Shown one piece after another: positions 39,371 to 41,982 of a stretch of 64,000 bases of DNA (the first letter of the stretch is position 1; each line of letters starts with the position of its first letter). The translations under genes and the position numbers were made by a program. The notes under the pieces are model-generated. The model ran no database searches, had not been told where the DNA came from, and worked only from the letters and a program-made list of their open reading frames with translations. This DNA comes from Syntrophobacterales bacterium (GTDB lineage: Bacteria; Desulfobacterota; Syntrophia; Syntrophales; UBA5619): the NCBI GenBank assembly GCA_019429105.1, contig JAHYJE010000004.1:1-64000 (forward strand). Direction: 5' to 3'.

Positions 39371-40552
39371 TTATTTCCCGCGCGCTTCCTTCTGCAGTTT
39401 CTTGACCATGTCGGTTTTCTCCCACGGATAGTTATCCATGAAGAGCGTCTTCGGAATCCGGCGGTAGGTTTCGCTGTTGAGAAGATCAAACCGCCCGATC
39501 ATCCCGGCCGGGGTGAGGTCAAAGAGCTTGTCCACCATTTCCTCAAGCCTTCTGTCGCCTGTTTTGGCCGTCCCGAAGCTGTCGATGTAAACGGAAAAAG
39601 GCTGGGCGACGCCGATGGCGTAGGAGAGCTGCACGGAGCATTTTGTGGCCAACCCCGCGGCGACGATGTTTTTGGCGACATGCCGGGCGCCGAAGGCGGC
39701 CGAGCAATCCACCTTTTCCGGAGTTTTATTGACAACCGCGCCCCCTCCGAGCTGGGCGCCCGGATACCCGCCATAGGCCTGCACCACAAGCTTGCGGCCG
39801 GTTATTCCGGAGTCTGCCGCGCTGCATGAGTTTATCGCCTGCCATTCCCCGGTAGGATTGAACATGAATTCGGTGTTTTTATCCACATATCCTCCCATGG
39901 CAGCAAAGGCGATCTTCCGGGCCTTTTTTTCCACCAGTTCTCTTTTGCCTTTCACAAAGCGATAGTCAATGGCATTCGACATGAGCACCTTGGCCAGACG
40001 CAGGGGTTTGCACGTTTTGTCGTCATATTCTACCGAGACCTGCCCCTTGCCGTCCGGGGCAAAGATGGGATCGCCGCAGTCTTCGAAGGCCCTCATCATT
40101 TTGGTGGCAAGGACATAAGGCAGCGGGAGCAGCTCCGGCGTTTCGTCACAGGCAAATCCGTACATGATTCCCTGATCGCCCGCCCCGATCTCCCTGTATT
40201 TTCCGGAATCGGCGCGGGTGCCCATGTTGATGTCCGGGGACTGGGGGATAATGGCGTTCAGAACGCCAATGGAGCTGCCGTTCAGGCCGACGGCGATATC
40301 GTTGTATCCGATGCTGAGAACGGTTTCCCGAACGATCTTGTCAAGGTCGATCCAGGCCCTGGTGCTGACCTCCCCGCCGACGACGCAAAGCCCCTTGCCG
40401 AGGAAGACCTCGATGCCGCAGTGGGGCATATTGTTGATGTCCATCCCGAATTCTTTTTCCTGCTCAAGGATGGTGGCGATGACGTGCGCGGCGATCGTAT
40501 CCGCAACGATATCCGGATGTCCAATCTTGATGCTTTCCGATGTTATCTGCAT
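39371..40552 (-). CDS. metK: S-adenosylmethionine synthetase, divergent form
   Basis: A 393-residue protein of MetK length with recognisable blocks: GHPD near residue 11, GEVSTRAW, QSPDIN, GAGDQGIMYGFACDETPE, GKGQVSVEYDD, FNPTGEW, SGITGRK and HVAKNIVAAGLATKCSVQLSYAIGVAQPFS. It makes S-adenosylmethionine from methionine and ATP. Against the E. coli enzyme the active-site Lys after GHPD is replaced by Ile (GHPDI), and the Arg in KVDRSAAY is Cys (KVDCSAAF); the other lysines (GRK, NKTP, EKVD, GKGQV) are kept. It may be a real but distant MetK or a paralogue. A candidate SAM riboswitch and terminator precede it. Confidence 0.85.
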   Translation of the reverse strand: MQITSESIKIGHPDIVADTIAAHVIATILEQEKEFGMDINNMPHCGIEVFLGKGLCVVGGEVSTRAWIDLDKIVRETVLSIGYNDIAVGLNGSSIGVLNAIIPQSPDINMGTRADSGKYREIGAGDQGIMYGFACDETPELLPLPYVLATKMMRAFEDCGDPIFAPDGKGQVSVEYDDKTCKPLRLAKVLMSNAIDYRFVKGKRELVEKKARKIAFAAMGGYVDKNTEFMFNPTGEWQAINSCSAADSGITGRKLVVQAYGGYPGAQLGGGAVVNKTPEKVDCSAAFGARHVAKNIVAAGLATKCSVQLSYAIGVAQPFSVYIDSFGTAKTGDRRLEEMVDKLFDLTPAGMIGRFDLLNSETYRRIPKTLFMDNYPWEKTDMVKKLQKEARGK

Positions 40553-40582
40553 TTTGTCTCCTTTTTTAAGTTTAGTTTTCCC

Positions 40583-40612
40583 AAAACGAAAAAACCCGCG
40601 CCAGAGCGCGGG
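40583..40612 (-). terminator. Intrinsic terminator in the metK leader
   Basis: On the minus strand CCCGCGC-TCTG-GCGCGGG is followed by TTTTTTCGTTTT, some 40 bp before the metK start. The 5' arm (CCCGC) is also complementary to GCGGG in the 5' strand of the riboswitch P1 helix, giving a plausible antiterminator when P1 is not formed. Confidence 0.75.
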
Positions 40613-40621
40613 TTATAATTC

Positions 40622-40673
40622 ACATGCACTTTAGCACATTTATATAGCGGAGCAATTGACGTAAATTCCCGCT
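40622..40673 (-). promoter_or_regulatory. Candidate SAM-II-like riboswitch upstream of metK
   Basis: Read on the minus strand: P1 is AGCGG (40669-40673) with CCGCT (40646-40650). Its 18-base loop GAATTTACGTCAATTGCT resembles the GAUUU...UUGC loop of SAM-II RNAs. The 3' tail ATATAAATGT-GCTAAA (40645-40630) resembles the conserved UAAAUG...GCUAAA strand. Order and spacing match the known 52-base pseudoknot. The second pseudoknot helix could only be drawn with wobble pairs, so it is a candidate. It sits between a promoter and a terminator, and the gene makes SAM, which fits SAM-repressed feedback. Confidence 0.5.
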
Positions 40674-40683
40674 TCCGGCGCGG

Positions 40684-40712
40684 TGAATACGTCACGAAAA
40701 ATAAAAAGTCAA
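40684..40712 (-). promoter_or_regulatory. metK promoter
   Basis: On the minus strand TTGACT (40707-40712) and TATTCA (40684-40689) are 17 bp apart. Transcription would begin about 40677, directly before the P1 helix of the candidate riboswitch. Confidence 0.55.
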
Positions 40713-40779: not shown

Positions 40780-40857
40780 ATGGACATTCTTTTGCTGTGG
40801 CAAGTGAGCCACGGCATAACAAAGCGACCATCAAACATAAATTGGGGAGGAGCAGAA

Positions 40858-41982
40858 ATGGAGCAAGAAAAGAAGATTGTTCAGGGAAGACGTTCGTTTT
40901 TAAAGAAAGCCGGGGCGGGAATCGCCGCAGGGGCAGGAATCGCCGCAGGGATTGGGGTTGGGGCGCCGTTTGCCCATGCGCAGACGACAATCCGCTGGCG
41001 CCTTGCGTCGAGTTTCCCGAAGGCGCTGGATGCCCTCTTTCGACCGGCTGAGGAGTTTGCCAAGATAGTCGGCGAGATGTCCGGCGGGAAGTTTACGATA
41101 ACCGCCCATCAGGCCGGGGAGCTGCTTCCCGCCTTTGGCGTTGTTGACGGCGTGCAGAACGGGACGGTGGAATGTTGCCACACCGCTCCCTACTATTTTT
41201 TCGGCAAGGATGAAACATTTGCCATGGGCACCGCGATTCCCTTTGGCCTGAACTCCCGCCAGATGACCGCCTGGATGTTTGAGGGCAACGGCCTGAAGCT
41301 GATGCGGGAATTTTACAAAAGCTACAACATCATCAACTTCCCGATGGGCAACACCGGGGCGCAGATGGGCGGATGGTACCGTAAGGAAGTAAAATCGCTA
41401 AAGGATTTGAAGGGTTTGAAGATGAGAACGGCAGGCATTGCCGGCACCGTTATGCAGCGGCTGGGCATGGTGACCGTGAGCATGCCCGGAGGCGAGATTT
41501 ACACATCCCTGGAAAAGGGCACTATCGACGCTGTCGAGTTTGTCGGGCCCTATGACGACCTGAAACTCGGTTTTTACAAGGTGGCGCCCAATTATTACTA
41601 TCCCGGCTGGTGGGAAGGCGGGGCGGCGACGGATTTGTACGTCAATGCGAAGGCGTTTGAGGCGCTTCCGGCGGAGTACAAGGCGATAATCGAAGCGGCC
41701 GCAGCACGTTCGCATGTGATAATGCAGGCCATATACGATGTAAAGAATCCGGAGGCCCTGAAAAAACTGGTGGCCGGCGGCGCCAAGCTGCACCGTTTCT
41801 CGAAAGATATCATGGATGCCGCGTTCAAGGAGTCGATGGCCCTCTACAGCGAGCTTTCCGCCAAGAACCCCCGCTGGAAGAAGGTTTACGATGATTACAG
41901 CCAGTTCCGATCGGACTCGAACATGTGGTTCCGGTTCGCCGAAGCCGGGTTCGACGATTTCATGCATACCCAGAAACTGTAG
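40858..41982 (+). CDS. dctP: TRAP transporter substrate-binding protein (DctP family), Tat-exported
   Basis: A 374-residue protein. The ATG at 40858 follows GGGGAGGAG; an earlier in-frame ATG at 40780 overlaps the promoter. The N-terminus has a twin-arginine signal (GRRSFLKKAGAG) with a Gly/Ala-rich core ending at AHA-Q, so it is probably exported folded. The mature chain (RWRLASSFPKALDALFRPAEEFAKIV, shown in part) is of the DctP family for organic or alpha-keto acids. The permease genes 42196-44590 are on the other strand, converging with this gene. Confidence 0.9.
   Translation: MEQEKKIVQGRRSFLKKAGAGIAAGAGIAAGIGVGAPFAHAQTTIRWRLASSFPKALDALFRPAEEFAKIVGEMSGGKFTITAHQAGELLPAFGVVDGVQNGTVECCHTAPYYFFGKDETFAMGTAIPFGLNSRQMTAWMFEGNGLKLMREFYKSYNIINFPMGNTGAQMGGWYRKEVKSLKDLKGLKMRTAGIAGTVMQRLGMVTVSMPGGEIYTSLEKGTIDAVEFVGPYDDLKLGFYKVAPNYYYPGWWEGGAATDLYVNAKAFEALPAEYKAIIEAAAARSHVIMQAIYDVKNPEALKKLVAGGAKLHRFSKDIMDAAFKESMALYSELSAKNPRWKKVYDDYSQFRSDSNMWFRFAEAGFDDFMHTQKL

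Follow-up and report, generated by a model that had tools for sequence, protein, structure and literature searches.

A divergent SAM-II-like element with an intrinsic terminator upstream of metK in Syntrophales

The metK locus and its leader

The window, by which we mean the whole 64,000-nucleotide stretch of DNA analysed, carries on its minus strand a metK gene (39371-40552) encoding an S-adenosylmethionine synthetase of 393 amino acids with the Pfam N, M and C domains. This is the only metK match in the genome (G000), which belongs to the order of Syntrophus and Smithella; the nearest named contigs bearing this metK come from Syntrophus/Syntrophales MAGs. The element described here is situated between metK and a divergent ORF (40780-41982, plus strand) which, judged by eye, may be a TRAP-type transporter gene. 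It lies 37 nt upstream of metK, whose ATG is at 40552, with a Shine-Dalgarno sequence AGGAG at 40558-40562.

The features of the leader are all on the minus strand. A -35 box TTGACT (40707-40712), represented in homologous leaders by TTGAC or TTGAT at about equal distance, is followed after a 17-nt spacer by a probable weak -10 box, TATTCA (40684-40689), which matches three of six consensus positions and was not called by the promoter and terminator scan of the window; the transcript is expected to start near 40677. Next come the P1 5' strand AGCGG (40669-40673), the L1 third strand GAAUUUA (40662-40668), whose UUU is the SAM-pocket strand (pocket positions: PMC11508383), AAUUGC (40652-40657, with TTGC itself at 40655-40652), aligned as the 5' strand of the pseudoknot helix P2b, and the P1 3' strand CCGCU (40646-40650). 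Both P1 strands are placed by covariation and by alignment to a held-out model (see below). The A-rich L3, AUAUAAAUGU (40636-40645), has the role of an A-minor strand in SAM-II (PMC12434664), and GCUAAAGUGC (40626-40635) may act either as the P2b 3' strand, forming part of the SAM pocket, or as the antiterminator 5' strand; ATAAAT and GCTAAA are found at 40643-40638 and 40635-40630. The tail between the P1 hairpin and the terminator is AUAUAAAUGUGCUAAAGUGC. An intrinsic terminator (40589-40614), called by the scan tool, consists of a 9-bp stem with a TCTG loop, AACCCGCGC-TCTG-GCGCGGGTT (40614-40593), and a T run; the end of its 5' arm, its loop and the start of its 3' arm make up the antiterminator partner GCGCUCUGGC (40600-40609). 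The leader RNA folds better than shuffled sequences (z -2.5).

The initial annotation had described a promoter, P1, the SAM-II strings in order and a built-in terminator. We found all the named strings on the minus strand at 40589-40712, the -10 box being weak, and the terminator stands as described.

A DNA palindrome, TGACGTA/TACGTCA (40694-40688/40663-40657, minus strand), spans the -10 box and L1. We rejected it as an extension of P1, because relatives lack it and because the half further upstream overlaps the -10 box and is therefore probably outside the transcript. The palindrome may have arisen by chance, or it may be an operator.

Distribution and class assignment

A model of the element (R1) was used to scan 155 genomes of the class, and the element was found in 84 of these, mostly upstream of metK. 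To avoid circularity, a further model (R2) was built from other families of the order, with no sequence from the window's own family. R2 scores the site at 54.9 bits (E = 9.9e-11 across the whole 3.1-Mb genome, 2.1e-12 across the window alone), and the next-best site in the genome reaches only 12.8 bits. In homologous metK leaders the element recurs with hardly a letter changed, amid flanking sequences that differ. These results come from metagenome-assembled genomes whose sequences are related to one another. Outside the class, a sample of the phylum searched with strict filters, which lose weak matches, yielded matches in just two genomes of one other family. Both (L166 in G328 and L167 in G521) carry a pair of consecutive SAM-II-like units, whose P1 stems are GCGCC/GGCGC and GTCGC/GCGAC; some 500-700 nt downstream of these, the first ORF of appreciable size starts MSFPFSYNEPLF and has a cysteine motif, and looks like a radical-SAM protein.

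The core of the element runs P1 - [U/C/G][G/A]AUUUA - (A/C)UUGC - P1' - UAAAU - GCUAAA, in the order and with the letters of SAM-II. P1 is paired in 98.7% of cases and three of its five pairs show double changes, a result that none of 500 shuffles equalled; the compensatory changes come mostly from the second copies of tandem leaders (GGCGG/CCGCC, GGTGG/CCACC and AACGG/CCGTT). P2b, in which UUGC pairs with GC(U)AA and UUU is the third strand, is 99.6% paired, and the window has all of its letters. This is consistent with the SAM-II pseudoknot, although helix P2b is so nearly invariant that proof by covariation is precluded. A helix P2a 3' of the core is plausible at 2-3 bp in many copies, with one mismatch in the window, but its covariation is not significant (permutation fraction 0.17). 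The A-rich L3 after P1 is conserved. In SAM-II the pocket is formed by two U of L1, the A-U-U before GC, and U, A and A of GCUAAA (PMC11508383); all of these positions are present in the window copy, and the strings UUU, AUU and U-A-A-A of GCUAAA are kept and nearly invariant among relatives. The two nucleotides directly after P1 are a point of difference: most relatives have UGAUUUA in L1, whereas the window has GAAUUUA, and this change of UG to GA (40668-40667) is found in the window's family at a position that is conserved in other SAM-II copies. GAGUUA and CUUGC occur as near-pocket variants in relatives.

The Rfam models do not recognise this copy. A scan of the window at gathering thresholds reported nothing, and the search with the SAM-II and SAM-V models that had been proposed as a check gave no match there; with E up to 10, no SAM family matched near the site, RF00521 included. 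In the class, the 36-bit cut-off of RF00521 is reached in two of the 155 genomes and the 44-bit cut-off of RF01726 in none, the window copy falling below it. Sub-threshold matches to other families in the window and the loci (Leu_leader, anti-hemB) are mostly driven by the terminator, and sub-threshold RF00521 matches at G077:C76 and G065:C6 look like chance matches; both sets were discarded. The copies L083 (G054) and L145 (G082) pass RF00521 with 41.6 and 43.6 bits. For several of the second copies in tandem leaders, RF00521 or RF01726 gives 23-30 bits (30 bits with RF01726 for that of L123). These bridging and second copies are thus intermediates that link the metK leaders to classical SAM-II.

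The element also lies upstream of methionine and SAM genes together with a terminator, a context typical of SAM-II. On structure and context the window copy can be assigned with confidence to SAM-II, but since it fails both Rfam cut-offs we place it in a divergent branch outside RF00521. In this form the earlier suggestion of a SAM-II-like aptamer is supported, by the conserved leaders, the covariation in P1 and the bridging copies. A lack of any covariance-model hit, together with a lack of conserved covariation in homologous metK leaders, had been named as the outcome that would count against it; there is indeed no Rfam match for the window, but the homologous leaders are conserved and their P1 covaries.

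Proposed termination control and its alternatives

Of 90 distinct leaders, 84 are predicted to combine P1 with an antiterminator in the minimum-free-energy fold of nascent RNA cut just after the terminator loop, with fold energies that leave pseudoknots and ligand out of account. In the antiterminator, GCUAAAGNNC pairs with a stretch that runs from the last bases of the terminator 5' arm through the loop into the start of the 3' arm. The pairing in relatives takes forms such as GCUAAAGCAC with GUGCUUUGGC, GCUAAAGUGC with GCGCUUUGGC, and AAAGGC with GCCUUU; that of the window, GCUAAAGUGC with GCGCUCUGGC, has one A-C mismatch and only -11.4 kcal/mol as a duplex estimate. Leaders pair better with their own partner strand (-11.8 kcal/mol) than with permuted ones (-9.7, sd 0.45; 0 of 5000 permutations as good, among 21 leaders with distinct strands, whose shared ancestry inflates the significance). 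Within the main type alone the permutation fraction is 0.002, a figure again inflated by kinship, and for a neighbouring control stretch it is 0.42. In tandem second copies the complement (e.g. CUGUUUAGC for GCUAAACAG) is found within the terminator loop, immediately beside the 3' arm, and by its geometry this helix should be exclusive with the terminator stem.

We consider it probable (roughly 0.8) that the element is an OFF riboswitch acting on transcription and built on a SAM-II-type pseudoknot aptamer, in which binding of SAM captures a strand from the antiterminator and so leads to termination. In kinetic terms, P1 (AGCGG/CCGCU) would fold first and persist. At high SAM, the ligand would bring the UUU strand of L1 and P2b (UUGC with GCUAAA) together in the SAM-II triple helix; with the GCUAAAG strand captured in this way, the terminator would fold and shut off transcription of metK. 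At low SAM, GCUAAAGUGC would pair with GCGCUCUGGC in the terminator 5' arm and loop, the terminator would be blocked and metK would be made. We infer this direction of control from the fact that the antiterminator strand is also the SAM-binding strand, so that binding should release the terminator. Published probing of SAM-II, in which P1 and L3 are preorganised and P2 is stabilised by SAM (as reported in PMC12434664), fits such a switch. SAM would be the ligand because the controlled gene encodes SAM synthetase, because of the other metK contexts, and because SAM-I occupies the corresponding position at one sister metK (see below).

The initial annotation had likewise placed an OFF switch upstream of metK, and to that extent it is supported. 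Its mechanism was another one, in which, without SAM, GCGGG of the P1 5' strand pairs with CCCGC of the terminator. The window and its family have this pairing without a mismatch, it is also used when the window leader is folded with 9 nt upstream of P1, and a P1-based alternative is the best truncated fold in four of the 90 leaders, including L004 and L154. However, most relatives have the weaker GCGGU/CCCGU, and across leaders the fit between P1 5' strand and terminator is not species-specific (0.42-0.59 of permutations as good). It would also require P1 to be opened, whereas SAM-II probing found P1 preorganised (PMC12434664) and P1 is intact in the predicted antiterminated state of the 84 leaders; we regard this mechanism as quite improbable. 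A shift in ligand choice, towards SAH or a lack of discrimination between SAM and SAH, is suggested by the near-pocket changes (GA for UG at 40668-40667; GAGUUA and CUUGC in relatives), but the pocket uridines adjoining the sulfonium are kept, the context is SAM synthesis, and the sister metK is under SAM-I, which makes such a shift improbable.

Two further readings find even less room. If the SAM-II strings were coincidental, the site could be an ordinary promoter with a constitutive attenuator or a protein operator; the silence of the Rfam scans and a weak promoter-like reading of the core by eye (TTGCTC..TAAAGT) would suit this, but the held-out model gives E of about 1e-10, and conservation of the element extends over the whole order, to tandem copies and to positions upstream of different genes, so that coincidence is very improbable. 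Translational control of the SAM-V kind, with a hidden Shine-Dalgarno sequence, is the least probable: the core fold is common to SAM-V (PMC6061858), but the Shine-Dalgarno sequence (40562-40558) is more than 60 nt past the core and beyond the terminator, with no evident pairing to the aptamer, and the Rfam scans gave no SAM-V family match.

Gene contexts, tandem copies and known SAM-II riboswitches

A second type of metK, about 40% identical to the window's MetK, is also preceded by the element, and both types are found behind the riboswitch in different families (L122, L124, L125, L127, L129 and others against L001). It seems that the switch either stayed while the metK enzyme changed or moved along with it. 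In L140 the element lies upstream of an mtnA-like gene followed by metK. In six leaders (L118, L119, L120, L121, L123 and L131) it lies upstream of a family of small proteins (~110-200 aa, 'VVxRIxTxExxYPGG'), the single member scanned having no Pfam match; this gene is probably under SAM control. At L123 (61-2006) a CRISPR-like array with sub-threshold RF01322-type repeats is found downstream of the tandem element.

SAM-I (RF00162) has no match in the window's genome and was found in only two of the 155 genomes of the class. In one of these (G027; L170, G027:C21, 325-420), a canonical SAM-I with its own terminator lies directly upstream of a metK that shares 72% identity with that of the window, at the position held elsewhere by SAM-II-like elements. 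Riboswitch class is here exchanged at orthologous metK genes within one order.

Tandem leaders were observed at nine loci (L014, L117, L118, L119, L120, L123, L126, L131 and L139). The first unit is of the window's type and the second is nearer to classical SAM-II, with a terminator on each. Triple SAM-II-like arrays lie upstream of metK regions in L145 (238-490, minus strand; G082:C37) and L146 (347-603; G127:C3), where two directly abutting aptamers have one common terminator and a third aptamer has its own. Tandem SAM-II riboswitches are known from 44 examples (PMC9481103), which the two-unit leaders with a terminator each resemble; L145 and L146, in contrast, place two aptamers upstream of one terminator, and in that review SAM-II is absent from dual-aptamer, one-platform arrangements, which are given for other ligands only.

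Most descriptions of SAM-II present it as an alphaproteobacterial riboswitch of methionine biosynthesis genes, and its transcriptional mechanism is less studied than the translational one. The class (SAM_alpha, RF00521) was defined by Corbino in 2005 upstream of methionine genes, often with terminators (PMC1273637), and Barrick and Breaker noted in 2007 that SAM-II, unusually, mostly has terminators, the mechanism not being established (PMC2258182). The present element resembles RF00521 in P1, in L1 with UUU, in the UUGC/GCUAAA pseudoknot, in the A-rich L3, in the promoter just upstream of P1, in the terminator and in the met/SAM genes. It differs in its shorter L1 and L3, P1 of AGCGG/CCGCU, GAAUUU in the window's family, sub-threshold score, and control of metK in Desulfobacterota. 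RF01726, SAM-II with long loops (PMC2864571), has the same core and is known from Bacteroidetes and marine metagenomes, but its cut-off is not reached here; SAM-V (PMC6061858) shares the pseudoknot and SAM pocket but is translational and has no terminator. In a 2014 survey of Proteobacteria, SAM_alpha was confined to Rhizobiales and Rhodobacterales, where it lay mainly upstream of metY; for the deltaproteobacterial groups that it covered, Desulfovibrionales and Desulfuromonadales, SahR was listed and no riboswitch (PMC4239095). We found no description of SAM-II upstream of metK in this order in the open-access literature searched. The earlier remark that this lineage is unusual for SAM-II is supported.

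The Syntrophales copies could tentatively be seen as a separate expansion of SAM-II that took over metK and spread to unrelated genes, with two-aptamer arrays in some genomes and perhaps, given the changed bases beside the third strand, an altered affinity or SAM/SAH choice in the window's branch, but we think this rather unlikely as a whole. If it is true, arrays with two aptamers per terminator would give steeper or cooperative control by SAM.

That Rfam misses a subfamily spread over an environmentally important syntroph order shows that maps of riboswitch distribution are incomplete. The proposed switch would give these bacteria a feedback mechanism for metK, and a terminator able to pair with the ligand-binding strand provides a clear model, open to experiment, of how SAM-II could act on transcription.
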